Below, in pieces: positions 1,488 to 16,378 of a DNA stretch of 64,000 nt. Both the position numbers and the translations under genes were made by a program. Every line of letters begins with the position of its first letter. Position 1 is the stretch's first letter. The notes below the pieces were generated by a model. It made no database searches. It was given only the letters and a program-made list of their open reading frames with translations, and was not told where the DNA came from. This stretch comes from Streptomyces carpinensis (GTDB lineage: Bacteria; Actinomycetota; Actinomycetes; Streptomycetales; Streptomycetaceae). Location of the stretch: NCBI RefSeq assembly GCF_002154505.1, contig NZ_MUBM01000086.1, positions 1-64,000 on the forward strand, written 5' to 3'.

Positions 1488-2126
1488 TCAGGTGGCTGCC
1501 GCCCCTCCGCCCTCTTCCGGGAACAGCGATCGCAGTGCCATCCTGGTCAATTCGGCCTCTACGGCATGCCGGTTCGGGACCACGGCCGCGCGGAAGGGGC
1601 GACCGGCCAGGAGCGAGACGATCCACCAGGCGGCGGTGTGCGGGTCCACGTCGTTGCGGACGTCGCCGACCGCCTGGCCGCGGCGGAGCAGTTCCGCGAG
1701 GGTGGCGGCGAAGTGCCGATGGACCTGGCGCAGGGCTTCGCCGAGCTCGGGGTCGTCGGCCAGGGCGGTGGCGTCGGCGAACAGGAAGCCATGGGAGCCG
1801 GGCTGGTGGAAGCGTTCCATGTGGGCCGGGTCGAGAAAGGTTGTCAGCACCTCGGGAACCGGTCGGCCCGCGTCGGCGGCCCCCCGAAGAAGCGCGGAGA
1901 CCGAGGACGTGGCGTGTTCGAGTGCCGCGCGGTACAGCGCGGACTTGGAGCCGAAGTTCTGGAAGACGACCGGCTCGGTGACGCCGACTCGCTTGGCGAT
2001 CTCGGAGACCTTGCCGCGTTGGTATCCGGTCTCGGAGAAGACCTCCGTGGCCGCGGCGAGGATCGAGGCGCGCCGTTGGGCGGCGGGCAGGCGGGTGCGC
2101 GTGCGGGGCTCGGTCACAACGGCCAT
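1488..2126 (-). CDS. TetR-family repressor
   Basis: A 212-aa TetR regulator. The N-terminal helix-turn-helix occupies about residues 15-60 ('ASILAAATEVFSETG', then 'VSEIAKRVGVTEPVVFQNF'). The C-terminal ligand domain is unassigned. It is divergent from a methyltransferase gene starting at 2212. The short intergenic region carries two copies of a CTTAGT/ACTAAG palindrome, so it very probably represses both itself and the methyltransferase. The ligand is unknown. Confidence 0.88.
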   Translation of the reverse strand: MAVVTEPRTRTRLPAAQRRASILAAATEVFSETGYQRGKVSEIAKRVGVTEPVVFQNFGSKSALYRAALEHATSSVSALLRGAADAGRPVPEVLTTFLDPAHMERFHQPGSHGFLFADATALADDPELGEALRQVHRHFAATLAELLRRGQAVGDVRNDVDPHTAAWWIVSLLAGRPFRAAVVPNRHAVEAELTRMALRSLFPEEGGGAAAT

Positions 2127-2152
2127 CGTATGCCCGCCCCCTTGCCAGCTTT

Positions 2153-2168
2153 CTTAGTCGTGACTAAG
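2153..2168. promoter_or_regulatory. TetR operator copy 1
   Basis: CTTAGTC-GT-GACTAAG, a perfect 7-bp-arm palindrome in the tetR/methyltransferase divergent region. A second copy is 12 bp to the right. Confidence 0.8.
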
Positions 2169-2180
2169 TTAGAGCTTGTA

Positions 2181-2196
2181 CTTAGTGGCGACTAAG
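2181..2196. promoter_or_regulatory. TetR operator copy 2
   Basis: CTTAGT-GGCG-ACTAAG repeats the first operator with one changed central base. It ends 15 bp before the methyltransferase start codon, where a bound repressor would block initiation. Centre-to-centre spacing is 28 bp. Confidence 0.8.
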
Positions 2197-2211
2197 TTGT
2201 GGAGGAGAGTC

Positions 2212-2874
2212 ATGTCTCTCGGACGCCTCATGCAGGGCGAGCCCCACGCGGCTACGCCCGGCGTGACCATCGCAGCCCCTCGCACTTACGAAGCGTTCGG
2301 CGCCGTCTGCTTCGCCGGCCGCCGCAACCGTTCCTTCACCCGCCTCGCCGGACTCAGCGGAGCCGAGCCCGGGGACCGGGTTCTCGACGTCGGCTGCGGC
2401 ACCGGCTACCTCGCCCGGCGAATGGCCGCGCGGGTCGGGCCGGGCGGTGCGGTGACGGGGGTGGACCCCTCACCGCCGGTCCTGGACTACGCACGGAGCA
2501 AGAAGCAGCGTCCCGGCAGTGCCCCCTGCACCTTTCAGGAGGGCATCGCCGAGTCCCTCGACCTGCCGGACGCCTCTTTCGACACCGTCGTCACCAGCCT
2601 GATGCTGCACCACCTGCCGGAGGAGCTCCGTCCCGCGGCACTGCGCGAGATGCACCGCGTCCTGCGGCCCGGTGGGCGGCTGCTGGTCGTGGAGTTCCGT
2701 CCGCCGCGGAGCCGGATCGGCCGCCGTCTGGTGCATACGGGAACAGCTCATGCCATGGCGTACAACCGGGCGGATCTGCTGGGCGGCCTTGTCGCGGACG
2801 CCGGCTGCGAGGTCCGCGGGAGCGGCGATCTGCGGCCCTGGCTGTGCTACGTACAGGCGACGCGGGCGCGGTAG
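2212..2874 (+). CDS. class I SAM-dependent methyltransferase
   Basis: A 220-aa Rossmann-fold methyltransferase. Motif I 'VLDVGCGTGYLARRMA' lies near residue 60, an acidic ribose-binding loop 'VTGVDPS' follows, and '[16 protein letters not shown]' is the usual post-motif III. ATG 2212 is chosen because GGAGGAG lies just upstream; the frame is open a little further 5' but runs into the operator. It is the only gene facing the tandem operators, which suggests induction by a small molecule seen by the TetR protein, for instance O- or N-methylation of a toxic compound (inference). The substrate cannot be read from sequence. Confidence 0.85.
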   Translation: MSLGRLMQGEPHAATPGVTIAAPRTYEAFGAVCFAGRRNRSFTRLAGLSGAEPGDRVLDVGCGTGYLARRMAARVGPGGAVTGVDPSPPVLDYARSKKQRPGSAPCTFQEGIAESLDLPDASFDTVVTSLMLHHLPEELRPAALREMHRVLRPGGRLLVVEFRPPRSRIGRRLVHTGTAHAMAYNRADLLGGLVADAGCEVRGSGDLRPWLCYVQATRAR

Positions 2875-3089
2875 TGCCGGGCGCCGTCCCGCCGTTTTTC
2901 GATCACGCTCCACGGTGCGTGGCAGCTGGCGCCGAGCCGCGGTCGCACGGCCCCCACGGGGCGGCCACCGCGCGAGACCACGGTGTGGACCAGTCACTCC
3001 CCGGGGCGCCCTGGAGGGGTCCGGCGAGCGACGGTGAGCGCGGCCGCAGCAACGGATGCCGGACGCGAACGGGAGCCGAGACCGTGACC

Positions 3090-3725
3090 ATGAAGACGCT
3101 GGAGTCGCACACGGGCCACCCGGAACAGTCCGAAGGCCGGCCGGACACCGGAGGGAACGCCGCGGCGACGTTCCTCAGCGCAAGGCCCCTTCTCCTCTCG
3201 ATCGGGCTGCGTGTCCTGCAGGACGTGGGTGAGGCCCAGGACGCGGTGCAGGAGACGTGGCTGCGCTGGGCCCGGACCGACCGCTCCGCCGTCACCAACC
3301 CGCCCGTGTTCCTCGCGCAGACCACGAGCCGGATGGCCATCAACGTCACCCAGTCCGCCCGCCGACGCCGTGAGACCCTTGGCGGTCCATGGCTGCCCGA
3401 GACCGTGGACCGCACCGGCAACCCCGAGTGGGCGCTGGAACGCCATGAGACGGTCGACGGCGCGATCCGGCTGCTCGTGGAGCGGCTGCCCGCCGCGGAA
3501 CGGGCCGTCCATCTCCTGCGCACGGCCTTCGACCACCCCTGTCCCCGGATCTCCGAGCTCCTCCACCTGAGCGAGGCCTACGCACGCCAACTCCTGCGCC
3601 CTGCCCGCCGAGGGGGCAGTCGGCGGTGGCATCAGGCGCGCGGGGCGGTCGCGGCTTCGGGCTCTGGTTCCACTGCCGGTGCCACCGTGTCGCTCAGGCC
3701 GAGGCGGAGGTGCTCGACGTGGTAG
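3090..3725 (+). pseudogene. truncated ECF sigma factor (SigJ/ECF41-like), C-terminal domain missing
   Basis: The translation shows sigma region 2 ('GEAQDAVQETWLRW', 'FLAQTTSRMAINV') and most of region 4 ('ERLPAAERAVHLLRTAF', 'ISELLHLSEAYARQLL'). Recognisable homology ends near 3605. The SnoaL-like C-terminal domain that ECF41-type factors carry and need is absent. The frame instead runs to 3725 across the 3' end of the converging arsR gene. ATG 3090 or GTG 3084 could start it behind a weak GGGAG. It is probably a remnant; a short functional sigma factor is possible but less likely. Confidence 0.7.
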
Positions 3726-4036
3726 AGGGCCTGGTCGAGGAGTTCGGCGACGTGGTTGTCGTAGAGGGCGTAGACGACGGAGCGTCCCTTGCGGGTGCCG
3801 GTGACCAGGCCGAGGTTGCGCAGCAGCCGTAGCTGGTGGGAGCAGGCGGACTGTTCCATGCCGACCTCGGCGGCCAGCTCGGTCGCGGGCAGGGGGCCTT
3901 CGCGCAGGCGGGCGAGTATGAGCAGGCGGGAGGGGGTGGCCAGGGCCTGGAGGGTGGTGGCGACCCTGGCGGCGCCGGCCGCGTCCAGGCGCGCGCGGGG
4001 GACGTTGCTGGAAGGCGGTGCGGCTCCGTGACCCAT
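3632..4036 (-). CDS. ArsR/SmtB-family metal sensor, NmtR-like
   Basis: A 134-aa winged-helix repressor starting at ATG 4036. The recognition region is 'QSACSHQLRLLRNLGLV'. The helix alpha-5 metal site reads D-x-H-x10-H-x2-H ('YDNHVAELLDQALYHVEHL'), the spacing described for NmtR, a Ni/Co sensor of mycobacteria, and there is no alpha-3 CxC site. It diverges from a P1B-4 ATPase, matching the known NmtR-CtpJ pairing. Release from DNA by Co/Ni (or Zn) would de-repress export. The metal preference is inference. Confidence 0.88.
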   Translation of the reverse strand: MGHGAAPPSSNVPRARLDAAGAARVATTLQALATPSRLLILARLREGPLPATELAAEVGMEQSACSHQLRLLRNLGLVTGTRKGRSVVYALYDNHVAELLDQALYHVEHLRLGLSDTVAPAVEPEPEAATAPRA

Positions 4037-4068
4037 GCGTCCATCGTAGGGCACCCTTCCATGAATGC

Positions 4069-4084
4069 ATGAATGAGTCTTCAT
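4069..4084. promoter_or_regulatory. putative ArsR operator
   Basis: ATGAA-N6-TTCAT inverted repeat in the divergent arsR/ATPase region, preceded by a direct repeat ATGAATGC-ATGAATGA (4061-4076). ArsR/SmtB operators are AT-rich imperfect repeats of this kind, and this is the most AT-rich part of the intergenic region. Confidence 0.6.
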
Positions 4085-4157
4085 CTGTTCCTGTTACGGT
4101 GGAGGCGTCGGTCGGACTGTGCTCCGTCCCCCTCTTTCCGTGAAGGACCCCGTGTCG

Positions 4158-6134
4158 ATGTCTTCCACCCTCACCCGCCCGGCGCCGCCCGGCACTGCCC
4201 GGGAGGCGGTGGCACCCCGCCGCCCCACCCGGATCTTCGCCCTGCCCGAGGCCCGCTGGGCGGCCGCGGCGCTCGTGCTGTTCCTGCTCGCGCTGCCGCT
4301 GTATCTGGCCGGTACGTCGGCCTGGACATGGGCCCCCTTGTTCGCGGCCGTCTACGCGACCGGCGGCTGGGAGCCGGGCTGGGCAGGGCTCCGGGCACTG
4401 GGCGAGAAGACCCTCGACGTGGACCTGCTGATGGTGGTCGCCGCGCTCGGGGCGGCGGCGATCGGGCAAGTGCTGGACGGAGCGCTGCTGATCGTCATCT
4501 TCGCCACCTCCGGCGCTCTGGAGGCGATCGCCACCGCCCGCACCGCCGACTCGGTGCGTGGCCTGCTCGACCTCGCTCCCGCCACAGCCACCCGGCTTGC
4601 CGGCGACGGCACCGAGGAGACGGTGCCGACCGACCGGCTCGCGGTGGGCGACGTCGTTCTGGTGCGGCCCGGTGAGCGGATCGGTGCCGACGGCCGGGTG
4701 CTGGACGGCGCGAGCGAGGTCGACCAGGCCACCATCACCGGCGAACCGCTGCCCGCGGCCAAGCAGGAGGGCGACGAGGTGTTCGCCGGCACCCTGAACG
4801 GCACCGGTGCGCTGCGGGTGGTGGTCGAGCGGGACCCGTCCGACTCGGTGATCGCCCGGATCGTGGCCATGGTCGAGGAAGCCTCCGAAACCAAGGCCCC
4901 CACCCAGCTGTTCATCGAGAAGGTCGAACAGCGCTACAGCCTCGGGATGGTCGCCGCCACGGTGGTCCTGTTCGTCCTGCCTCTGGTGTTCGGCGCCGAT
5001 CTGCGGTCCACGCTGCTGCGCGCGATGACCTTCATGATCGTCGCTTCGCCGTGCGCGGTGGTGCTGGCCACCATGCCGCCGCTGCTGTCCGCCATCGCCA
5101 ATGCCGGACGGCACGGCGTGCTGGTCAAGTCGGCCGTGGTCATGGAGCGCCTCGGACAGGTGGACACGGTCGCCCTCGACAAGACCGGCACGCTGACCGA
5201 GGGCACCCCGCGCGTGACCGACATCCGCCCGCAGGCCGCCTCCGGCCTGAGCAAGGACGAGGTGCTGCGGCTGGCGGCGGCGGCCGAGCACCCCAGCGAG
5301 CACCCGCTGGCCCGCGCGATCGTCGACGCCGCCCGCGCTCGCGACCTGGACATACCGCTGGTGGAGGACTTCGTTTCCGCCCCGGGCGCCGGAGTCAGCG
5401 CGAGGGTGGAGGGCAGCACCGTCGCGGTCGGAAGCCCCGCCCGCATCCTGGACGATCCCGCCGGCCACCCGGCCGTCGCCGTGGCCGCCGCCCTGGAGCA
5501 GGACGGCCGCACGGCCGTGCTGGTCACCCTCGACGGCACCCCGGTGGGGGTGCTGGGCATCGCCGACCGGCTGCGTGAGGACGCCGCCGCCACCGTCGCC
5601 GCTCTGGGCAGCCTGACCGGTACGGCCCCGGTGCTGGTCACCGGCGACAACCCCCGCGCCGCGGGCCGGCTCGCCGCCGAGGTCGGCATCACCGACATCC
5701 GCGCCGGTCTCCTCCCGCAGGACAAGGTGAATGCGGTGCAGGAGCTGGAACAGGCCGGGCGGAAGGTGCTGGTGGTCGGCGACGGTGTGAACGACGCCCC
5801 CGCACTGGCCGCCGCCCACACCGGTATCGCCATGGGCCGTGCCGGATCGGACCTGGCCCTGGAGACCGCCGACGCCGTCGTCGTGCGCGACGAACTGGCC
5901 ACCATCCCCACCGTGGTACGCCTCTCGCGCCGAGCCCGCCGCATGGTGGTGCAGAACCTCGTCATCGCCGCGCTCTTCATCACCGGCCTGGTCGTGTGGG
6001 ACCTGGCCGGCACCCTGCCCCTGCCACTGGGTGTCGCCGGCCACGAGGGCTCCACCGTCATCGTCGGCCTCAACGGGCTGCGCCTGCTCGCCGACGGCGC
6101 CTGGCGCCGTGCCCTCGCCGGGACAGACCGTTGA
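4158..6134 (+). CDS. P1B-4-type heavy-metal exporting ATPase
   Basis: A 658-aa P-type ATPase. It has the actuator 'TITGEPLP' (about 193), the metal-binding transmembrane motif SPC (about 296), the phosphorylation site 'DKTGTLTEG' (about 340), the HP motif 'SEHPLARAI', the hinge 'GDGVNDAPAL' (about 540) and a last helix with 'HEGST' (about 628). SPC plus HEGST, no N-terminal metal-binding domain and only about six membrane helices define the P1B-4 group (CoaT/CtpD/CtpJ; Co, Ni, Fe or Zn efflux). ATG 4158 or in-frame GTG 4152 could start it; AAGGA lies at 4143-4147. It is controlled by the divergent NmtR-like gene and runs into a ferredoxin gene. Confidence 0.92.
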   Translation: MSSTLTRPAPPGTAREAVAPRRPTRIFALPEARWAAAALVLFLLALPLYLAGTSAWTWAPLFAAVYATGGWEPGWAGLRALGEKTLDVDLLMVVAALGAAAIGQVLDGALLIVIFATSGALEAIATARTADSVRGLLDLAPATATRLAGDGTEETVPTDRLAVGDVVLVRPGERIGADGRVLDGASEVDQATITGEPLPAAKQEGDEVFAGTLNGTGALRVVVERDPSDSVIARIVAMVEEASETKAPTQLFIEKVEQRYSLGMVAATVVLFVLPLVFGADLRSTLLRAMTFMIVASPCAVVLATMPPLLSAIANAGRHGVLVKSAVVMERLGQVDTVALDKTGTLTEGTPRVTDIRPQAASGLSKDEVLRLAAAAEHPSEHPLARAIVDAARARDLDIPLVEDFVSAPGAGVSARVEGSTVAVGSPARILDDPAGHPAVAVAAALEQDGRTAVLVTLDGTPVGVLGIADRLREDAAATVAALGSLTGTAPVLVTGDNPRAAGRLAAEVGITDIRAGLLPQDKVNAVQELEQAGRKVLVVGDGVNDAPALAAAHTGIAMGRAGSDLALETADAVVVRDELATIPTVVRLSRRARRMVVQNLVIAALFITGLVVWDLAGTLPLPLGVAGHEGSTVIVGLNGLRLLADGAWRRALAGTDR

Positions 6135-6532
6135 GCCGCCGCGCCCGCAAGGCCGCCCCCGCGGGGGCGGCCAGGTGCACCGTCACCGTGTGCCGCGGCT
6201 GCTGCTGCGGCACCGAGAAGATCCCCGGCGTCGACCACGCGGCCCAACTGGCAGGCCTGCGGCAGGCCCTCGCCGACACCGCGCAGATCCGGGTGACCGG
6301 GTGCCTGGACGCCTGCGAGCACGCCAACGTGATCGTCGTCCAGCCCTCGCCGGCCGGGCGGGCCGCCGGCGGGCGGCCCGTGTGGCTGGGCCTGGCCAAC
6401 GACCCCGAGGCCGCCGATGACATCGCCACGTGGATCGCTGCCGGCGGGCCCGGACTCGCGGACCCGCCCGGCGTGCTCGACCTGTACGCATTCACCCCGT
6501 CCCGGCGCATGCGCCAGGCGGTCGAGGGCTGA
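6131..6532 (+). CDS. thioredoxin-like [2Fe-2S] ferredoxin coupled to the metal ATPase
   Basis: About 133 aa. The Cys-rich 'VCRGCCCGT' near residue 20 and 'GCLDACEHA' further on fit the thioredoxin-like [2Fe-2S] ferredoxin fold (C-x3-C second pair). No ATG or GTG gives a complete fold. The best start is TTG 6131, which overlaps the ATPase stop, implying translational coupling. A 22-base perfect palindrome (6151-6172) lies in the first codons. Pairing of such ferredoxins with P1B-4 pumps suggests redox handling of the metal, or Fe/Co stress protection of Fe-S chemistry; this role is inference. Confidence 0.75.
   Translation: MSRRARKAAPAGAARCTVTVCRGCCCGTEKIPGVDHAAQLAGLRQALADTAQIRVTGCLDACEHANVIVVQPSPAGRAAGGRPVWLGLANDPEAADDIATWIAAGGPGLADPPGVLDLYAFTPSRRMRQAVEG
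6151..6172. repeat. 22-bp perfect palindrome at the start of the ferredoxin gene
   Basis: GGCCGCCCCCG followed by its exact reverse complement. As RNA it gives a 9-bp GC-only stem with a CGCG loop, 16 bases after the ATPase stop codon. It could attenuate read-through or limit ferredoxin translation. Confidence 0.6.
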
Positions 6533-6688
6533 TCGCACCCGGCGCCGGGAGCGGCACGGCGAGGCGCCCAGCCCTTCCGCCGGTCGCGCTGGGCCGCTGT
6601 TCTCCGAAGGGGCCACGGGACTGACTGCTGCTTGCCGCCCGGACAAGGCGTTACCCTGATCTGCGGCTGTGGCTCCCGATCACAGCGC

Positions 6689-6744
6689 GGCGGTGGGGCT
6701 CGCCGTACCCGAACCGCGGCATCGTCGCCGCCGACAGTCCCTAC
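6689..6744 (+). ncRNA. fluoride riboswitch (crcB motif)
   Basis: P1 is GGCG (6689-6692) with CGCC (6701-6704), enclosing a GUGGGGCU loop. It is followed by AACCGC (6712-6717), a GCGGC/GCCGC stem (6716-6720 with 6727-6731) and CGACAGUCCCUAC. Loop bases GGGGCU (6695-6700) can pair with AGUCCC (6736-6741), giving the pseudoknot that defines the fluoride aptamer, and the 3' CCUAC is the conserved end. It lies 58 bases upstream of a crcB gene, as known fluoride switches do. The UGAUG element is degenerate (CGACAG). Confidence 0.85.
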
Positions 6745-6759
6745 TTGCGATGGAGCGAC

Positions 6760-6777
6760 GCCCGCATCCGTGCGGGC
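6760..6777 (+). promoter_or_regulatory. expression-platform hairpin of the fluoride riboswitch
   Basis: GCCCGCA-TCCG-TGCGGGC, a perfect 7-bp stem with a 4-base loop, between the aptamer and the AGGAG ribosome-binding site (6788-6792). There is no U-tract, so it may act as a factor-assisted terminator or control the leader in another way. Confidence 0.6.
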
Positions 6778-6802
6778 CCAGGCGAGTAGGAGACGTGCGT
6801 TC

Positions 6803-7288
6803 ATGACTGCCCCGAACACCAGGGTGACGGACGAGCCCACGGCTCCCGACGTCGATCTGCACCTGCCGTCTCAGCGGCGGCAGTCGTGGCGGGCGCAGGG
6901 GCCGATCGTTGCGGTGGTGGCGATCGGCGGGACGATCGGGGCGACGGCCCGGTACGGGGCGTCCCTGGTCTGGCCGGTCGCCGCGGGTGGCTTCCCGTGG
7001 ACGACGCTGTGGGTCAATGCCGCCGGCTGCGCGGTCATCGGTGTCTTCACGGTGCTGATCACCGACGTGTGGGCGGCGCACCGGCTGGTGCGGCCCTTCT
7101 TCGCGACCGGGATTCTCGGCGGGTTCACGACCTTCTCCACGTATGCCGTGGACATCCAGAAGCTCGTGCAGGGCGGGCATCCCAGGACCGGGCTCGCCTA
7201 TCTCGCCGCGACGCTGTGCGCGGCGCTTGCGGCGGTATGGCTCGCGGCGACGACGACGCGCCGCATGGTGGCATGGAGGCAGCGGTGA
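6803..7288 (+). CDS. crcB: fluoride channel CrcB/FluC, subunit 1
   Basis: A 161-aa membrane protein with four helices after a polar N-terminal tail of about 35 residues. Family signatures are '[11 protein letters not shown]', '[13 protein letters not shown]' (the conserved Asn of the pore) and '[12 protein letters not shown]' (the polar track). Fluc channels are dual-topology dimers that let F- leave the cell. Actinomycetes often encode two non-identical subunits that heterodimerise, which fits the second crcB 340 bp downstream. ATG 6803 has AGGAG 10 bases upstream. Control by the riboswitch in front is expected. Confidence 0.92.
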
Positions 7289-7626
7289 CAAGGCTGACGG
7301 GCAGCGCCCTTCGAGTGACGATCTTCATCGGTGAGAACGACGTCTGGCACCACAAGCCCCTGTACAGCGAGATCGTGCACCGGGCGCACAAGGCCGGGCT
7401 GGCCGGAGCGTCGGTGTTCCGCGGTGTGGAGGGCTTCGGGGCCTCCTCTCTCGTCCACACCTCGCGGCTGCTGTCGCTGAGCGAGGACCTGCCGGTGGCG
7501 ATCGTCATCGTGGACACGGCGGAGCGGGTGCGGGCCTTCCTGCCGCAACTGGACGAGCTGGTCGGGTCGGGGTTGGTGATCCTCGACGACTGCGAGGTGA
7601 TCCGGTACGTGGGCAGGGAGAATTAA
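7285..7626 (+). CDS. DUF190 (PII-like fold) protein in the fluoride operon
   Basis: A 113-aa soluble protein of the DUF190 family ('[23 protein letters not shown]', '[15 protein letters not shown]', '[10 protein letters not shown]'). The fold is related to PII signalling proteins. It starts with GTG 7285 overlapping the crcB stop (GTGA) behind GGAGG, so it is translationally coupled and sits between the two channel genes. DUF190 next to crcB recurs in bacteria, but its biochemical job is unknown to me. A ligand-sensing or channel-gating partner is a reasonable guess. Confidence 0.88.
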
Positions 7627-7629
7627 GGC

Positions 7630-8004
7630 ATGAACTGGCTGCTCGTGGCCCTTGGTGCCATGGTCGGGGCTCCCCTGCGGTACCTGACCGACCGGGCGGT
7701 GCAGAAACGGCACGACACGGTGTTCCCGTGGGGCACGTTCACCGTGAACGTGGCCGGCTGCCTGATCCTGGGCCTGCTCTCCGGCGCCGTGGCGGCAGGG
7801 GCCGCTTCGTCGCACGTCCAACTGCTGCTGGGCACCGGGCTGTGCGGGGCTTTGACGACCTATTCGACGTTCTCGTACGAGACACTGCGGCTGGCGGAGG
7901 ACGGGGCGAGGTTCTTCGCCGCCGCCAACGTGATCGCCAGTGTGGTGGCGGGCTTGGGGGCGGCGTTCGTGGGGGTGTCGTTGGCGGAGGCGCTGTGGGC
8001 GTGA
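7630..8004 (+). CDS. crcB: fluoride channel CrcB/FluC, subunit 2
   Basis: A 124-aa four-helix channel subunit: 'GAMVGAPLRYLTDR' at the N-terminus, 'WGTFTVNVAGCLILG' with the pore Asn, and 'GLCGALTTYSTFSYET' as the polar track. It starts 3 bases after the DUF190 stop and its own stop overlaps the next start (GTGA). Unlike subunit 1 it lacks a long N-terminal tail. The pair likely forms a heterodimer with fixed, opposite topology. Confidence 0.93.
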   Translation: MNWLLVALGAMVGAPLRYLTDRAVQKRHDTVFPWGTFTVNVAGCLILGLLSGAVAAGAASSHVQLLLGTGLCGALTTYSTFSYETLRLAEDGARFFAAANVIASVVAGLGAAFVGVSLAEALWA

Positions 8005-9221
8005 ACCGGCCCGGCCCCACGGCGCGGGAGGCGGACCGGCCGCCCGGGCGGATGGGGCCGTGGCGGTTCGTGGTCTGGTTCGGCACGGTCAGCCTGCTCG
8101 CGGATGTCGTGTACGAGGGGGCCCGCTCGATCACCGGGCCCCTGCTGGCCTCCCTGGGTGCCTCCGCTCTGGTCGTCGGGTTGGTGACCGGCGCCGGGGA
8201 GGCGGCGGCACTGGGGCTGCGACTGGTCTCCGGCCCGCTGGCGGACCGGACCCGCCGCTTCTGGGGTCTGGCGATCGCCGGATACGCGTTGACCGTCGTG
8301 TCGGTGCCGCTGCTCGGCGTGGCGGGTGTGCTGTGGGCTGCCTGCGTGCTGGTGATCGCCGAGCGGGTGGGGAAGGCGGTGCGCTCGCCCGCGAAGGACA
8401 CCCTGCTCTCGCACGCCACCGCCGCGACGGGCCGGGGGCGCGGCTTCGCCGTCCACGAGGCGCTCGACCAGATCGGCGCCCTGGTCGGCCCGTTGCTGGT
8501 GGCGGGCGTGCTCGCGCTGACCGGGAACGACTACGGTCCCGCGCTGGGCGTGCTCGCCCTCCCCGGCATCGCCGTACTGCTGCTCCTGTCCTGGCTACGG
8601 GCCCGGGTGCCCGACCCGGAAGCCTACGAACGTGAGGTGACAGCCGCGGCGCCCGCGACACCTGTCGCGCACGACGGGCGGCTGCCGAGGGCGTTCTGGA
8701 CGTATGCCGGGTTCACCGGGGCCACCACGACCGGGTTCGCCACGTTCGGCGTGCTCTCCTACCACCTGGTCCAACGGCATCTGCTGGCCGCCGCGTGGGT
8801 GCCGGTGCTGTACGCCGCGGCGATGGCCGTCGACGCCGTCGCCGCGCTGGCCACGGGGTGGCTCTACGACCGGCACGGTCCGCGTGTGCTGATCGCCCTG
8901 CCCGTCCTGACCGCGGCCGTGGCGGCACTGGCGTTCACCGACACGATCGCGATCGCGGTGGCCGGATCGCTGGCCTGGGGTGCCGCCATGGGCATCCAGG
9001 AGTCCACTCTGCGCGCCACGGTCGCCGACCTGGTGCCCAGCGGGCGGCGGGCGACCGCCTACGGGCTGTTCGCAGGCGTCGTCGGCGCGGCGAGCCTGGC
9101 CGGCGGCACCCTGACGGGCGGCCTGTACGGCTACTCCATCCCAGTACTGATCACGGTCGTCGTCGCCATCCAGGTGCTGGCAGTGGTGCTGCTGGCCGCT
9201 ACCCGCGTGCGGCGGCTCTGA
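8001..9221 (+). CDS. MFS transporter closing the fluoride operon
   Basis: A 406-aa 12-helix major facilitator. It has 'GPLADRTRRFWG' (the loop 2-3 motif A variant) and a repeat-like 'GWLYDRHGPRVL' in the second half. GTG 8001 overlaps the crcB2 stop, so it belongs to the same transcript under the same riboswitch. MFS proteins of this group have no defined substrate that I know; co-transcription points to export of fluoride-related or stress metabolites, or to ion homeostasis (inference). The next gene remnant begins about 170 bp downstream. Confidence 0.85.
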   Translation: MNRPGPTAREADRPPGRMGPWRFVVWFGTVSLLADVVYEGARSITGPLLASLGASALVVGLVTGAGEAAALGLRLVSGPLADRTRRFWGLAIAGYALTVVSVPLLGVAGVLWAACVLVIAERVGKAVRSPAKDTLLSHATAATGRGRGFAVHEALDQIGALVGPLLVAGVLALTGNDYGPALGVLALPGIAVLLLLSWLRARVPDPEAYEREVTAAAPATPVAHDGRLPRAFWTYAGFTGATTTGFATFGVLSYHLVQRHLLAAAWVPVLYAAAMAVDAVAALATGWLYDRHGPRVLIALPVLTAAVAALAFTDTIAIAVAGSLAWGAAMGIQESTLRATVADLVPSGRRATAYGLFAGVVGAASLAGGTLTGGLYGYSIPVLITVVVAIQVLAVVLLAATRVRRL

Positions 9222-9389
9222 CCGCCGGGCGGAAGGCGACTGCCGCGAGGCGAGGAGCTTTCTGGCGGCCGCCGGCTGGTTCGCCGGATCCGCGGATTCG
9301 CCGGCATCGCCCTCGCCTACGGCTCCTACCGGCGCAGCCGCTGGTCCAGCCGCTCCGCACTCACCTGCGCCTCCTTGAGACATCCGACC

Positions 9390-9815
9390 CGCCACTCGCG
9401 TCAACAGACGGAGCAGGCTTGTGCGGAGCGCGTCCTGTGCTTCGGTGTCGGACATCCGGCCGGCGCCCCGTTCCTCACTTGCGACATGGGCAAGCCTGAT
9501 GGTAGCGGCGACCGGCCAGTGGACCGGTAGCCGGTCAACGAACTCCCCGGTCTCCCGGCCCCTGGCGATCACCTGTCCGACACGGTCGGCGAGGGGCCTG
9601 TGCTGGTCCCGGTCGGCCTGCGGGCTGACGGGCAGGGCGCTGACCTTCTGCAGCAGCACGGGGTAGCGCCGGGCCGCCCTCATTCCCGCTTCGAGCAGAC
9701 GCATCGACGCGTCCGCAGCGGGTCCGGTGTCGAGATCGACGCCATCCATCGCAGCGACGGCGTCCTCGGTGACGCGGTCGACGACGGCCAGCAGCTGCTC
9801 GCGCGGGAGGGGCCG
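9390..9815 (-). pseudogene. TetR-family regulator remnant, DNA-binding half missing
   Basis: Translation of the minus strand gives a TetR C-terminal ligand domain ('PLPREQLLAVVDRVTEDAV', 'LADRVGQVIARGRETGEFVD', 'DALRTSLLRLLTRVAG'). The N-terminal helix-turn-helix is absent because the sequence right of 9815 belongs to a copZ-type gene on the other strand. The normal stop is also gone, the frame running on leftwards into the MFS gene. It is a dead fragment. Confidence 0.7.
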
Positions 9816-9820
9816 GCGCG

Positions 9821-10024
9821 ACCGAGACCAGCTTCACCATCACGGGCATGGTCTGCGCGCACTGCGCGGCACCCGTCACCGAGGAGATCGAACGCATCTC
9901 CGGGGTCACCGCCGCGAGGCTGGACGTCGACAGCGGAAGGGCCGTGGTGATCAGCGACGGAACCCTGGACGTCACCGGCGTACGTGCCGCCGTCGACGAA
10001 GCGGGCTACGCGTTGTCGACCTGA
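9821..10024 (+). pseudogene. heavy-metal-associated (CopZ-like) domain, start codon missing
   Basis: The frame encodes an HMA domain ('TETSFTITGMVCAHCAAPVT', ending 'VRAAVDEAGYALST') with the metal site M-x-C-x2-C. The expected start just before the first strand is not there. The only in-frame ATG is inside the metal loop (9848), giving 58 residues without strand beta-1. A GGAGGGG at 9806-9812 may be the old ribosome site. It abuts the TetR remnant head to head at about 9815. It is probably inactive unless a non-canonical start is used. Confidence 0.65.
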
Positions 10025-10049
10025 GATACGAAACCGGCGGTGGACGGAG

Positions 10050-10077
10050 CCCCCGTCGGGATCACCCGGCGGGGGCC
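10050..10077. terminator. intrinsic-type terminator after the CopZ remnant
   Basis: GCCCCCGTCGGG-ATCA-CCCGGCGGGGGC forms a 12-bp stem (one U-G pair) with a 4-base loop, 25 bases after the HMA frame. It has no T-tract, as is usual in Streptomyces, and could act in both directions. Confidence 0.75.
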
Positions 10078-10159
10078 TGGGCCTTCGGCCCCGTCAGCTG
10101 CCGCCGGTCGAGCGGCAGTTCTGGCGGGAACCGGAGCCGGCGTTGTCGCCGACTCCGGC

Positions 10160-10218
10160 GCGGCGGCGGAGGACCGGGAGCGCCGCGACAGGGCGGGGCG
10201 GCGGTCCTCCGCCGCCGC
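10160..10218. terminator. long-stem terminator of the S53 peptidase gene
   Basis: Two perfectly complementary 17-base arms (10160-10176 and 10202-10218, core GGCGGAGGACCG) separated by 25 bases, beginning 33 bases downstream of the peptidase stop on the minus strand. Together with the 10050 hairpin it isolates the converging transcripts. Confidence 0.8.
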
Positions 10219-10250
10219 ATACGGCCGAACGGCCTGTCCCGTAGGGAGGT

Positions 10251-11471
10251 TCAGCCGGTGAAGGCGGTGGTCCCGTTCGGGACGCCGAGACCGGACGGGC
10301 CGTCGTACCCGGTGGTGCCGGTGCAGAGGTAGGAGCCGCCGCAGCTGCCGTTGGAACCGCTGGTGACGTCGTACAGCGCCGAGGTGTGCGCGTAGGGGAA
10401 CGATGCCGGGTAGGAGCCGGCGGACGGGGTGCCGCCCAGGGCGTAGGTCGCCGCGATCAGCGGGGAGGAGGCGCTGGTGCCGCCGAAGACCATCCAGCCC
10501 GTGCCCTGGCTGTAGGTGTCGTACACCGCGACACCGGTGTTGGGGTCGGCGACCGCCGAGACGTCCGCGACCGTGCGGTTGGCGCAGCCGGTGTCCTTCT
10601 GCCAGCTGGGCTTGGCGTCGTAGGAGGAGCAGCCGGAGCCGGCCCCGCTCCACACCGTGTCGGTCCAGCCGCGCGTGTTGGAGGCCGTCTTCAGGGACGT
10701 ACCGCCCACCGCCGTCACGTACTTGGAGGCCGCCGGGTACTCGACGCCGTAGCCGTTGTCACCGGAGGAGACGGTGATGGCGACGCCCGGGTGGTTGAAG
10801 TACGAGGAATCGTACGTCGCGTCGCTGGAGGACTCGGAGCCGCCGTAGCTGTTGGAGACGAACTTCGCGCCCAGGTTGACCGCGGTGTTCACGGCCGTAC
10901 CCAGGTTGGTCATGGTGGCCGAACTGGCCTCCACCAGCAGGATCTTGCAGTTCGGGCAGGCAGCGCTGACCATGTCGAGGTCGAGGGAGATCTCCTCGGC
11001 CCAGCCGGAGTTGCCGCGCGGGTACTTGGTGCCGCCGTTCTGGTCGACCTTCTTGAAGCAGCCGTTGGCCGTGGTGCAGGCGGACAGGCCGTACTGGGAG
11101 CGGTAGACGGCGAGGTCGGCCTCGGCGTTCGGGTCGTCGTAGGCGTCGACGATCGCCACCGTCTGGCCCGAACCTCCGGTCGCGGACGGGAGGTTGTACG
11201 CCGCCTGGAGCGAGGCGGGACCGTAGCCGGAAGGTGCGGCGGCCGCGGTCAGGTCGCTCTCGGCGTGCGCCGACTTCGGGGTGCCCGCGGTGACCTCGAG
11301 GGCGTGGCAGGCCATCTCGCCCTTCTTGGCCGGGGCGGCACAGGCGTGGGCGACGGTGACGCCGTGGGACGGGGAGGCGGTGGCCTGGGCCGCCTGGCCG
11401 ACGGGGGCGGCCAAGGCGAGGGCGGCCGTGGCGAGCGTGGCCACGGCGGTGAGGGATACGGTTCTGCGCAA
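10251..11471 (-). CDS. secreted S53 (sedolisin-type) serine-carboxyl peptidase
   Basis: A 406-aa exported peptidase. I start it at TTG 11471, with GGAGG seven bases upstream; a signal peptide follows immediately ('RRTVSLTAVATLATAALALA', cleavage near Ala-Gln-Ala). S53 catalytic residues are visible: Glu160 and Asp164 in 'WAEEISLDLDM', the oxyanion Asp238 in 'SSGDNGYG' and the nucleophile Ser333 in 'GGTSASSP'. The large pro-kumamolisin activation domain of classical sedolisins is missing; only about 50 residues separate the signal from the catalytic core. Likely an extracellular acid protease. It is monocistronic with its own terminator. Confidence 0.9.
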   Translation of the reverse strand: MRRTVSLTAVATLATAALALAAPVGQAAQATASPSHGVTVAHACAAPAKKGEMACHALEVTAGTPKSAHAESDLTAAAAPSGYGPASLQAAYNLPSATGGSGQTVAIVDAYDDPNAEADLAVYRSQYGLSACTTANGCFKKVDQNGGTKYPRGNSGWAEEISLDLDMVSAACPNCKILLVEASSATMTNLGTAVNTAVNLGAKFVSNSYGGSESSSDATYDSSYFNHPGVAITVSSGDNGYGVEYPAASKYVTAVGGTSLKTASNTRGWTDTVWSGAGSGCSSYDAKPSWQKDTGCANRTVADVSAVADPNTGVAVYDTYSQGTGWMVFGGTSASSPLIAATYALGGTPSAGSYPASFPYAHTSALYDVTSGSNGSCGGSYLCTGTTGYDGPSGLGVPNGTTAFTG

Positions 11472-12069
11472 CGTACGTCCTCCGCAGGGTGGGTGAACCG
11501 GGAAGGGCTGTGGGGGGTGCGCGGCCTCGGCGCGGGGTGCGCACCACGGCCGCGCAGAACCTACGGATGTCGGGGCCACGTCAACAAGATGGATGTTGAA
11601 GCCGGAACGTTCCTTTGCCGTTCTTGGGGCGTTCATATGTCGTTCCTGGACGAGTCGTAACCGACACCGGGAGCGACCATGGCTTGACCGTGCTTCGTTC
11701 GGAACCGGATCGTCGACACCCTGTGTCAGCGACTTCCCATGGTGCGTTCCTGTCCAGCGACCGCCTCACACCGGGCTGCGTCCAGTGGACGCCCCATCAC
11801 ATCGCCCGCTCCCCGGAGCAGTTCGAGGTGACCGAGCGCGCGGTCGGCGAGTCGGGGCCGGCGCCGCCGCTGGAGCCCGAAGTCGTGGAGGCCGTCATGC
11901 GGTGCCTCGACTGGATGCGGCCCGTGGAGGCACGGCCCGGTTTCGGCCTCTCCTGCAGGCAGTGGACGAGACGACCGGACAGCCGTTCCGTCCACCGAAT
12001 CGATGCGCACCCTGGCCCCCGTCTCCTCAAAGCTCATGCACGAAGGGCGGGGCCGCCGCGCGGTTGTGT
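11472..12069. other. 600-bp gap without a supported gene
   Basis: It holds the upstream region of the S53 peptidase and then sequence with long open frames in several phases but no recognisable protein. A short plus-strand stretch near 11815-11860 ('FEVTERAVGESGPAPP') faintly recalls the N-terminus of a zinc alcohol dehydrogenase; this is too weak to call. Confidence 0.5.
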
Positions 12070-12449
12070 TCAGAGGTGCGAGCCGCCGGACGCGTCGATG
12101 GTTTGGCCGGTGATCCAGCGGCAGTGTCGGATGCGAGGAACGCGATGATGTCGGCGAAGTCGGAGGGGTCGCCCATGCGGTTGAAGACCGAGTGCTGTGC
12201 GTGGGCGGTTTCGCTTTCCGGGGTGTTCCAGCGGTGCTTGTTCATGTCGGTTTTGACGTGGTCCGGGGCTACGGCGTTGATGGTGATCTGGCGGGGCCCG
12301 AGTCGTTTGGCGAGCGTGCAGCTTTTTCGTTGGTCGCGTAGTGGACGGCGACGAGTGTCCCGTCGGCGGCGAGACGGTGGGCGATGGCCCGGCCGATGCC
12401 GCCGTCCTGCGCCGGTGACCAGTGCGGTTCTGCCCGTCAGGGCTGCCAT
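12070..12449 (-). pseudogene. short-chain dehydrogenase (SDR) remnant
   Basis: The start is 'MAALTGRTALVTGAG' (the SDR cofactor motif). The frame shifts to 'GIGRAIAHRLAADGTLVAVHY', then jumps to 'LAKRLGPRQITINAVAPDHV', and a further shift gives the terminal 'GQTIDASGGSHL'. At about 380 bp it is half the usual length. The part with NNAG, the catalytic Ser and YxxxK is deleted, and at least two frameshifts are present. Non-functional. Confidence 0.82.
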
Positions 12450-12617
12450 GGTTGTCGCTCCGCACGTGTGTTGTGTGCTCCTGTGGTGTGCCGGTGCCGG
12501 TGCCGGTGCCGGGCCCGGGCCGTCCGGCACCGGGCGGTCTGGGGCGGGACGGTCCAGCCCCGCCCCGGCGCCGGCCGGCGTGGGACTGAGGTGCCCGCTG
12601 TCGTTTCGCCGGCTGGG

Positions 12618-12839
12618 TCAGCGTGAGCGGAGTTCGCGCCGCAGGGTGCGTTCGAGCGGGGTGAGGGGGATGTCGTGCCGTATGCGTTCGGGGTGCCTGG
12701 CCGCGGGTCCGGTCAGGTCGTGGAGTGACCCCGCGGGGAAATACGGTCCGGCTGGCGGCGGGCCCATGGTGTTGTAGGGCTCCAGGCCTGTGTAGACGTA
12801 CAGGGCGTGCAGCATGCGGCGGGGCAGTGACAGTGCCAC
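12618..12839 (-). CDS. small DUF6059-like protein
   Basis: A 73-aa protein from GTG 12839 with GAGG five bases upstream. It has a short hydrophobic/aromatic N-terminal stretch ('MLHALYVYTGLEPYNTMGPP') and a C-terminal 'HPERIRHDIPLTPLERTLRRELR'. I recall this 'HPERL..D.PLTP.E..L' ending from DUF6059 proteins, small Streptomyces proteins often near specialised-metabolite genes. The function is unknown. It is flanked by the SDR remnant and the lysE gene, on the same strand. Confidence 0.65.
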   Translation of the reverse strand: MALSLPRRMLHALYVYTGLEPYNTMGPPPAGPYFPAGSLHDLTGPAARHPERIRHDIPLTPLERTLRRELRSR

Positions 12840-13021
12840 GGGGGACCTCGCTTGGCTCGTCGACGGAACCGGTCGGATGTCTCACCGTGCGGCTGTACGG
12901 TCGGCACGCGGTCCTGACGCGCTGGAGGCGGAGTCGGGGTGCGGTGGTGCTGAGGTGGGGGAGGACCCCAGGCGCCGGGCCGGCAGGGTGGCCGCGCGAT
13001 CGCCTGCGGGAGACCCGGCCC

Positions 13022-13642
13022 TCACCAGCCGGCCAGGCGCTCCACCAGCAGAGAACCGCCGATGACGATCATCATGGCACCGGAGACCCGGGTCACGGCC
13101 CGAGCCGCGGAGGGCCGCGTCTTGAGCACGGTGCGGGCCAGGACACCGACGGAGAGATAGACGACGGCGCTGGCCGTCATGTGGAGCGTGCCGAGCAGGC
13201 CGGTCTGCGCGGCGACGGGCCAGCCGCCCGAGGGGTTGATGAACTGCGGGAACAGTGAGAAGTACAGCAGCAGCGCCTTCGGGTTCAGGCCGCTCGTGCC
13301 GGCTCCCCTGAGCGCGACCTGCCAGTGCGAGGAGGCCATGGTCTCCGTGGACGCCGCCAAGGCGGCGGGCTGCCTCAGCACGCTCCACCCCAGCCAGATC
13401 AGATAGGCGGCCCCGGCGACGGTCAGCGCAGTGAGAACGGTGGTCGAGTTCGCCACGATCACCACCAGCCCTGCCACGGCCAGCAGCGTGTACCCCGCGT
13501 ATCCGGCGATCAGTCCGGCGACGGCCGGCACGACCGAGCGGTCCCGAAGCCCGGCCGAGATTGCATAGGCCCAGTCCGCACCAGGGGTGAAGACCAGCAG
13601 CAGATCCACTGCCAGGAAAGCCGCAACCGTCGTCGTGTGCAT
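13022..13642 (-). CDS. LysE/RhtB-family amino-acid exporter
   Basis: A 206-aa membrane protein with about six helices. The family start 'FLAVDLLLVFTPGADWAYAIS' and the motif 'GLNPKALLLYFSLFPQFI' are diagnostic. It exports amino acids or small analogues. ATG 13642 has GAGAGGGAA eight bases upstream, and that site lies inside one arm of a perfect 12-bp inverted repeat. An Lrp/AsnC regulator is divergent at 13755, the usual arrangement for feed-forward control by the exported amino acid. Confidence 0.9.
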   Translation of the reverse strand: MHTTTVAAFLAVDLLLVFTPGADWAYAISAGLRDRSVVPAVAGLIAGYAGYTLLAVAGLVVIVANSTTVLTALTVAGAAYLIWLGWSVLRQPAALAASTETMASSHWQVALRGAGTSGLNPKALLLYFSLFPQFINPSGGWPVAAQTGLLGTLHMTASAVVYLSVGVLARTVLKTRPSAARAVTRVSGAMMIVIGGSLLVERLAGW

Positions 13643-13648
13643 CGATCG

Positions 13649-13680
13649 TTCCCTCTCACATTCCTTGCTGTGAGAGGGAA
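13649..13680. promoter_or_regulatory. 12-bp-arm inverted repeat overlapping the lysE ribosome-binding site
   Basis: TTCCCTCTCACA (13649-13660), 8 bases, then TGTGAGAGGGAA (13669-13680): perfect arms. It is either the Lrp operator or, in the lysE mRNA, a hairpin that hides the GAGAGGG ribosome site. Confidence 0.75.
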
Positions 13681-13754
13681 GGTTAGGTGCGAGTTGCCCG
13701 AAAGTGTTTGCTTCTTTACTCCATGATCGCGCTTCTTCGGGGAAAATCTCCCCC

Positions 13755-14207
13755 ATGGATGCCCTGGACCGGAAGATTCTTACCGAGCTGCAGCTGGACG
13801 GCCGCCTGACGGTCACTGAACTGGCAGCGCGCGTGCAGCTGAGTGTCTCGCCCTGCCATCGCCGGCTGCGCGACCTCGAACGCGAGGGCGCCATCCGTGG
13901 CTATCGCGCCGTCGTCGACCCGGCTGCCGTCGGCCTGAACTTCGAAGCCGTGGTCTTCGCCACCCTGCGCTGGGAGGACGCCGGCACCGTCACCGCCTTC
14001 GAGGAGGCCGTGAGCGCCATTCCTCACGTCATCCAGGCCCAGCGTCTCTTCGGCGACCCCGACTACCTCCTGCGCGTCGCCACCACCGACCTGGCCGCCT
14101 ACCAGCAGCTCTACGACCAGCAGTTGGCCAAGCTCCCGGGCGTCCAGCGCCTGACCTCGACCCTCGTCATGAAGAACGTCGTGCAGGACCGGCCGCTGCC
14201 CGAGTAG
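13755..14207 (+). CDS. Lrp/AsnC-family regulator
   Basis: A 150-aa protein with an N-terminal winged helix-turn-helix ('MDALDRKILTELQLDGRLTV', 'VSPCHRRLRDLEREGAIRGYR') and a C-terminal RAM ligand domain ('DPDYLLRVATTDLAAYQQLY'). It is divergent from the LysE exporter and presumably activates it in the presence of an amino acid. A GGGGA/TCCCC mini-hairpin (13739-13753) directly precedes the ATG and there is no obvious ribosome site, so the message may be leaderless. Confidence 0.9.
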   Translation: MDALDRKILTELQLDGRLTVTELAARVQLSVSPCHRRLRDLEREGAIRGYRAVVDPAAVGLNFEAVVFATLRWEDAGTVTAFEEAVSAIPHVIQAQRLFGDPDYLLRVATTDLAAYQQLYDQQLAKLPGVQRLTSTLVMKNVVQDRPLPE

Positions 14208-14432
14208 CCGCACCCTCGAGGACGCCGGATTCGCCGATGCCCGAGGCATCAGGACGCACGCCGGCGGGCGGTGCCGCGCGGAGACACGCCGGCGTCCATC
14301 CCCTGGCGGGGCAGGCCCGCGCGTTTCGTGCAGCGGGACGCGCGCATCGTGCAGGAATCCACGCGATCGCGCTGCGGATACTCGTGCGCAAACGACCGAC
14401 GTACCTCAGATGACATGCGGAGGCAGAGCTCC

Positions 14433-16361: not shown

Positions 16362-16378
16362 CCGAGGAGCGCCCACCC

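Follow-up and report, generated by a model that had tools for sequence, protein, structure and literature searches.

A divergent fluoride-riboswitch-like leader before a crcB–DUF190–crcB–MFS operon of Streptomyces carpinensis, and the recurrence of its added genes beside fluoride genes

Does fluoride defence in these bacteria extend beyond a riboswitch and a channel? The question is raised by a locus of Streptomyces carpinensis, within the first 64,000 nucleotides of contig NZ_MUBM01000086.1 (assembly GCF_002154505.1; this whole stretch is the window referred to below), where a leader resembling the crcB-motif aptamer, the fluoride riboswitch of Rfam family RF01734, precedes genes for two CrcB (Fluc channel) halves, a DUF190 protein encoded between them and a major facilitator superfamily (MFS) transporter encoded behind them. 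An earlier note on this DNA had proposed that the four genes form a fluoride-handling set wider than the channel. As a genetic association this is supported, since both the cassette and the MFS gene recur when genomes are compared, and we consider it probable that the locus is a fluoride-induced operon with the MFS and DUF190 proteins as working parts; of the roles of these two proteins we are much less sure. The riboswitch class and the channel are already known, and what is new is the divergent form of the aptamer together with the two added families. The aptamer, an alternative stem, the gene set and the recurrence are established at the level of sequence comparison, by which the place of both families in fluoride defence also looks real.

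The leader and the four-gene set are present as the earlier note described them. Both hairpins and the six-pair pseudoknot sit where it had placed them (Table 1), and the RF01734 consensus aligns with the window aptamer over its full length, both hairpins (P1 and P3) and the pseudoknot included. The covariance-model search that the note had proposed gave a divided answer. At Rfam's gathering threshold (34 bits for RF01734) there was no match anywhere in the 64-kb window; with relaxed settings RF01734 matched positions 6680-6750 at 21.0 bits (E=0.0014 in 401 bases searched), under the curators' threshold, yet it ranked first among the 18 RF01734 matches (E≤10) found in the 10.4-Mb genome, with E=0.0085 there. 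Because the score lies under the threshold, we call the element a divergent relative that would work like the RF01734 family rather than a curated member of it, and it presumably binds fluoride.

The same element is found in the crcB leaders of other genomes of the genus. We aligned 29 distinct copies, including both copies from S. carpinensis itself, and built from them a covariance model, R1; in this alignment 99.5% of 435 cells are paired. At the pseudoknot pair adjoining P1, 22 aptamers have C-G, four have U-A (the window and three relatives that share its MFS gene), two have U-G and one has a broken pair, and the last P3 pair varies among C-G, A-U and U-A. Within its own genome R1 finds two copies, at E=7.7e-24 and, for the window copy, 8.3e-23, with no further match below 0.035, and both lie before crcB–DUF190–crcB. 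R1 matches (E≤0.001) occur in 154 of 295 genomes of the genus. When 13 loci of the genus were scanned with Rfam at the curators' threshold, no such element was reported; it is present in ten of them. This G+C-rich subfamily, carried by about half of the sampled genus genomes, was thus missed by the Rfam threshold wherever tested, and catalogues of riboswitches in these bacteria may therefore have gaps. Its connection with fluoride comes from distant relatives: among 20 crcB–DUF190 loci drawn from across the phylum, RF01734 exceeds its threshold at eight places, seven of which directly precede crcB on its strand (the one in L295 is on the other strand), and R1 matches six of the eight at the same coordinates. 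We tie the leader subfamily to the fluoride class because R1 recovers these RF01734 elements. Fluoride riboswitches in the genus are not new as such, since Streptomyces cattleya already appears in a review as making extensive use of riboswitch regulation (PMC11139923).

Individual loci show the spread of the element and its possible loss. An R1 match of 49 bits before crcB–DUF190–crcB in another family of the class (L313, 863-924), at a place without an RF01734 gathering match, indicates that the divergent subfamily extends beyond the genus. By pattern and by eye, the aptamer is not recognisable in six cassettes (L044, L047, L053, L054, L074 and L092), a possible loss of the riboswitch, and in L072 it is shortened with most of P3 gone, a possible natural case of such loss.

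How might such a leader control expression? The 3' end of the window aptamer can pair over nine positions with a strand that runs into the Shine-Dalgarno sequence of the first crcB. This stem was sought without regard to register in 73 leaders, of which 72 were scored; L218 was dropped, its ribosome site not being recognisable. At least seven contiguous base pairs were found in 62 of the 72, and among 54 distinct leaders the mean stem formed by a leader's own strands was 7.98 bp, against 6.56 bp (maximum 7.06) over 1000 shuffles between leaders. Changes in one strand are matched in its partner, for example CUUGU with ACGAG or, in the L137 riboswitch that precedes a pyrophosphatase gene, CCUGGUC with GACCAGG. 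Many members of the fluoride-riboswitch class are reported to have overlapping terminators (PMC2864571). In the region 6500-9400 of the window no T-run terminator was found, nor any promoter by a sigma-70 scan. From the alternative stem in the leaders and the absence of a terminator we conclude that control would be translational, probably switched on by fluoride. Without fluoride the anti-Shine-Dalgarno strand would pair with its partner and hide the ribosome site of the first crcB; with fluoride (and magnesium) bound, the pseudoknot would take C6740-C6741, the hiding stem would weaken and translation would start. Tight gene overlaps would then pass translation on through DUF190, the second crcB and the MFS gene.

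Table 1 Features of the leader and operon in the window
Feature	Position	Strand	Remarks
Fluoride-riboswitch-like aptamer (divergent crcB-motif subfamily)	6684-6749	+	RF01734 21.0 bits; model R1 91.2 bits
Hairpin stem P1, GGCG/CGCC	6689-6692 / 6701-6704	+	
Pseudoknot 5' strand, GGGGCU	6695-6700	+	pairs with 6736-6741
Hairpin stem P3, GCGGC/GCCGC	6716-6720 / 6727-6731	+	
Pseudoknot 3' strand, AGUCCC	6736-6741	+	pairs with 6695-6700
Anti-Shine-Dalgarno strand, CCUACUUGC	6740-6748	+	9 bp with 6782-6790; shares C6740-C6741 with the pseudoknot
Sequestered strand, GCGAGUAGG	6782-6790	+	runs into Shine-Dalgarno AGGAG 6788-6792 of the first crcB
crcB, first Fluc half, 161 aa	6803-7288	+	Pfam CRCB 87 bits; TIGR00494 80.7 against cut-off 80.45
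DUF190, PII-like, 113 aa, GTG start	7285-7626	+	Pfam DUF190 129.8 bits; PDB 2dcl and 1o51 by sequence and fold
crcB, second Fluc half, 124 aa	7630-8004	+	Pfam CRCB 103 bits; TIGR00494 93.1 against cut-off 80.45
MFS transporter, 406 aa, GTG start	8001-9221	+	Pfam MFS_1 92.8 bits

Pfam confirms the gene order crcB, DUF190, crcB, MFS, and both CrcB copies exceed the Pfam CRCB and TIGR00494 cut-offs. The two halves would form a heteromeric Fluc channel letting fluoride out. The earlier note was right about tight spacing and wrong in its count: four genes have three junctions, not four, and all three are tight, the first and third being overlaps of 4 nt and the second a gap of 3 nt.

The DUF190 gene is closely associated with the channel genes. 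Of 101 genomes of the genus surveyed, 53 had DUF190 and 97 had crcB, and in the window and 55 fetched loci crcB stood on both sides of DUF190 in 50 of the 56, on one side in one and beside it in none of the remaining five. Among 296 genomes from across the phylum, 75 carry DUF190 and 160 carry crcB. The 30 DUF190 loci with the highest scores, taken one per genome, have crcB next to DUF190 on the same strand in all but one case (29 of 30), and the recurrence of DUF190 beside crcB that the earlier note had looked for is borne out. Many of these 30 loci have a single crcB, and DUF190 is therefore not tied to two-gene channels. In several genomes (G331, G335, G371, G389, G403, G441, G455 and G505) three DUF190 matches follow one another within one long open frame, as tandem or fused repeats.

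The protein exceeds the Pfam cut-off for DUF190 (PF02641) and its AlphaFold model (pLDDT 74, from ten sequences) has a PII-like fold, with closest matches to 2dcl (Z 12.2) and 1o51 (Z 11.7), followed by CPII, SbtB and GlnK1 at about 8-9 and CutA1 at about 8. CutA1 is termed 'formerly DUF190' in PMC8469502, a label that does not fit Pfam PF02641. Transporter-bound relatives are among the structure matches, namely SbtA-SbtB (7egk) and AmtB-GlnK (2ns1). Because SbtB and GlnK bind transporters and DUF190 is fixed beside a channel gene, a regulator of the channel is our best guess by analogy; most likely it would be a PII-like trimer reading adenine nucleotides and tuning either the channel or the MFS carrier, in the way that GlnK acts on AmtB and SbtB on SbtA. 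In the open-access literature we found no paper linking DUF190, PII-like proteins, UPF0166 or COG1993 to crcB, Fluc or fluoride; databases and subscription papers may note the adjacency. If DUF190 does gate Fluc it would be the predicted first protein regulator of that channel, as we know of no other and found none in the open-access literature.

The MFS gene is linked to fluoride genes in a minority of its relatives. Matches at E≤1e-20 occur in 51 of 295 genomes of the genus, and 27 of these 51, our own included, have a match of at least 65% identity over a long stretch; one more has only a 52-residue piece. From the 26 other genomes with such a match 20 loci were fetched, and blastn found part of the window's leader–crcB–DUF190–crcB upstream of the MFS gene in eight (L133-L137, L142, L147 and L151; the inclusion of L142 rests on one weak match, E=4.5e-4). 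L138, at first judged partly by eye to carry remnants of the cassette, was rejected when blastn gave no support. We then took the best 80 of 549 loci named by a search of GTDB genomes with an MFS alignment; some come from the same genomes, five have less than 2 kb of upstream sequence, and the counts stand for related genomes, not independent events. Parts of the window's leader and cassette lie within 2.2 kb upstream of the MFS gene in 19 of the 80 by blastn, and R1 adds L279 to make 20; as controls, the stretch downstream of the MFS gene and the reverse strand of the upstream stretch gave two of 80 each. In a minority of loci, then, the MFS gene does recur in such company, well above the controls; around the other 60 no fluoride context was detected. 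In a blind clustering of the 883 genes around the 80 loci crcB was the most frequent neighbour family, at eight loci (the next at six), and an open-reading-frame family covering DUF190 occurred at five; the rest were scattered families of five or six loci.

The arrangement itself varies among relatives. The complete series of riboswitch, crcB, DUF190, crcB and MFS is found in Kitasatospora phosalacinea, Streptantibioticus rubrisoli, Streptomyces sp. CBMA152 and Frankia sp. AgB1.9, and the same gene order without an R1 match in Streptomyces violaceusniger (its first crcB matched in part) and two Demequinaceae metagenome-assembled genomes. In Mycolicibacterium sp. J2 an RF01734 element over threshold precedes crcB, crcB, a Usp protein gene and the MFS gene. 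One genome of a distant family (f18) has crcB, crcB, DUF190, DUF190 and MFS in a row, a second genome of the same genus has these genes with a gap between the two DUF190, and three genomes of one further genus combine crcB and DUF190 with an MFS gene of more distant kinship (162-168 bits, compared with 107-120 for other Streptomyces MFS proteins). In three loci (L147, L218 and L279, the last two by R1) the aptamer directly precedes the MFS gene. On a tree of 86 proteins, 23 of them fluoride-linked, the label changes 12 times, at least nine of which are forced by starred branches, and shuffled labels change 20.3 times on average; the fluoride link as traced on this tree is clustered, but it is not one event.

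Retention of the MFS gene in decaying cassettes offers a further view of its value to the cell. Its frame is open in eight Streptomyces loci where crcB and DUF190 are broken or partly gone (L133, L135, L136, L137 and L209-L212), and the ratio of nonsynonymous to synonymous substitution rates (dN/dS) is 0.111-0.335 over the 36 pairs formed by the window and these loci. In all 20 of the tested MFS genomes that belong to the genus a crcB pair is present away from the MFS locus, which would make the loss of crcB at that locus bearable, and the retention of MFS suggests a task that the second cassette leaves unfilled.

The gene also travels on plasmids, with 60-80% identity on nine plasmid records, four of which were examined for context. 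On pFRL5 of Streptomyces sp. F8 the genes nhaA, DUF2180, crcB, DUF190, crcB, MFS, enolase (eno) and phosphoglycerate mutase run in one direction, with R1 at 79 bits before crcB and an RF01734 match of 32.3 bits, just below threshold, between nhaA and the DUF2180 gene. On the Rhodococcus qingshengii plasmid and on that of Mycolicibacterium rufum, an RF01734 element above threshold heads crcB, crcB, Usp and MFS; the plasmid of Mycobacteroides abscessus has no fluoride gene in the 4 kb on each side of the MFS gene. The review PMC11139923 counts Na+/H+ antiporters, enolase, pyrophosphatase and formate hydrogenlyase among the known partners of the riboswitch. Similar partners occur at further loci. 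An R1 match of 31.5 bits lies just before the enolase gene of the R. qingshengii plasmid (L317, 2176-2248, minus strand), opposite the crcB-crcB-Usp-MFS operon. Locus L178 (genome G233, 1645-17074) is a fluoride island with seven R1 matches (E≤0.001) in about 13 kb, before genes for an inorganic pyrophosphatase, a NUDIX hydrolase, a DUF2180 protein and crcB and before short or unclear frames; genes for enolase and for NADH-dehydrogenase/hydrogenase-like proteins lie beside them. Near the MFS gene of L137 a fluoride-riboswitch-like element (5691-5750) stands before a pyrophosphatase gene (5772-6338), and in L207 (9423-9483) and L213 (9977-10037), again near the MFS gene, such elements lie just upstream of a partial pyrophosphatase match of 32-38 bits.

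What the transporter carries is less apparent. The window protein exceeds the Pfam MFS_1 cut-off, and its model (pLDDT 89) has MFS fold neighbours. No NCBIfam family reaches its cut-off for it (PgtP 23.5 of 407.75 bits, MdtH 19.1 of 469), so it falls outside the named subfamilies PgtP, MdtH, Tet and UhpC, and four relatives likewise stay under every NCBIfam cut-off; NCBIfam, PDB sequence and fold searches gave no specific answer as to substrate. Most likely it would be a proton-coupled exporter that aids survival in fluoride, moving either fluoride itself or a metabolite that accumulates when fluoride blocks enolase.

Several observations weigh against a fluoride-induced operon in which both added proteins take part. 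Besides the shortfall from the RF01734 threshold, the leader folds freely no better than its shuffles (z -0.48, which is uninformative), and only two of 15 aptamer pairs vary on both sides, a count matched by 64 of 500 shuffles; since most pairs never vary, the covariation taken alone is modest. Stems shorter than 7 bp were found in ten of the 72 scored leaders (L063, L196, L246, L182, L279, L213, the second matches of L207 and L234, and two of the seven in L178), and in two of the three riboswitch-MFS units, L218 and L279, the hiding stem was not scored or not found. For DUF190, CutA, GlnK and SbtB match the model about equally; moreover, Fluc is a dimer and PII proteins are trimers, so gating of one by the other would entail a symmetry mismatch. 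For the MFS protein, a fluoride context was not detected around 60 of the 80 relatives, which makes the link a partial one and a minority state and led us to reject a family belonging to fluoride alone; one plasmid copy lies beside an M56 peptidase and a P-type ATPase. Its structural model is about as close to one MFS family as to many others. The low dN/dS may mostly reflect earlier selection, since crcB may have decayed recently, and crcB is present in all 22 MFS genomes tested, so that in none of them was MFS seen to replace Fluc outright.

These points leave room for other explanations. If the leader were some other conserved element of crcB genes and not a fluoride riboswitch, RF01734 scores under the Rfam threshold, in the window and in the 13 genus loci alike, would follow naturally, but its end-to-end agreement with the consensus, hairpins and pseudoknot included, and the identical coordinates at which R1 recovers six of eight gathering-level elements make this highly improbable. 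It is also quite unlikely that the MFS gene is a bystander which landed behind a crcB cassette by chance and is co-transcribed with no part in fluoride defence. Such a bystander would be expected to lie mostly elsewhere, as 60 of 80 relatives do, and most crcB–DUF190–crcB cassettes of the genus are indeed without it, no intact orthologous MFS gene being seen in 60 loci fetched around DUF190 or crcB (L043-L102, with a 30-bit fragment in L083); however, the link recurs in Streptomyces, Kitasatospora, Streptantibioticus, Frankia, Demequinaceae, Mycolicibacterium, a Rhodococcus plasmid and f18, with at least nine forced changes on the tree, an aptamer directly before the gene in three loci, an open frame where crcB and DUF190 have decayed, and crcB at the head of the neighbour families found blindly.

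We keep to a working part for the MFS protein, for which two kinds of cargo come into question. It could itself export fluoride, as a third kind of exporter beside Fluc and CLC-F; a riboswitch directly before the gene in some loci, and an open frame under purifying selection where the adjacent crcB is broken, speak for this, but crcB persists in every MFS genome tested, the sequence and fold comparisons yield no pointer to fluoride, and we know of no MFS protein that carries it, so we regard fluoride as a rather unlikely cargo. Alternatively, it might move a metabolite, or a proton or anion, that relieves the effects of fluoride, for example phosphoglycerate, a monocarboxylate or phosphate. 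Its neighbours on pFRL5, where it is joined by enolase and phosphoglycerate mutase, and on the Rhodococcus plasmid, where enolase and phosphatases accompany it, fit this, as do a weak profile likeness to PgtP and UhpC and the presence of GlpT, G6PT and MCT1 among its structural neighbours, but that likeness is far below the family cut-offs and the drug exporters NorA and Tet score equally well or better; we hold the proposal tentatively, as possible. To the boldest combination, an MFS protein that founds a new class of fluoride (or fluoride/proton) exporters under fluoride riboswitches and a DUF190 protein that gates Fluc as a PII-type nucleotide sensor, we give little credence; were it true, fluoride export would be coupled to the energy state of the cell.

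The operon also adjoins metal-resistance genes, as an ArsR-like regulator on the minus strand (recognised by eye) and a heavy-metal P-type ATPase lie upstream (3632-6134). Between the ATPase gene and the riboswitch, positions 6131-6529 encode a cysteine-containing protein of 133 residues with no Pfam match; in three loci in which crcB was not detected (L143, L152 and L224), the MFS gene likewise has relatives of this protein upstream.

More broadly, two protein families of predicted fluoride role are repeatedly found beside fluoride genes, and in the open-access literature we found no paper on a fluoride riboswitch with an MFS or major facilitator protein. The survey also offers natural experiments: some units join the riboswitch to MFS and lack crcB, some cassettes contain a decayed crcB, and others have no riboswitch that could be recognised.

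An experimentally tested parallel is the fluoride operon ppaC-uspA-eno-gpmA-crcB-orf5249 of Enterobacter cloacae FRM (PMC5533749), in which pyrophosphatase, UspA, enolase and phosphoglycerate mutase are encoded together with crcB. The locus shares with it a fluoride riboswitch and crcB, and the plasmid relatives of the locus also share enolase, phosphoglycerate mutase and Usp; DUF190, MFS and major facilitator do not appear in the main text of PMC5533749. The aptamer has the two hairpins, pseudoknot, 3' tail and position before crcB of the RF01734 crcB motif, but its subfamily is G+C-rich, scores 21 bits against a gathering value of 34, and uses the 3' platform strand in what would be the hiding of the Shine-Dalgarno sequence. 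As in two-gene Fluc channels, two CrcB proteins over curated cut-offs are encoded in one operon, here with a DUF190 gene between the halves and an MFS gene after them. Finally, DUF190 shares with GlnK, SbtB, CPII and the UPF0166 proteins TM0021 (1o51) and PH1503 (2dcl) its fold and a gene next to a transporter; unlike GlnK, SbtB and CPII, its predicted partner would be a Fluc channel, and CutA1, too, matches it at Z of about 8.

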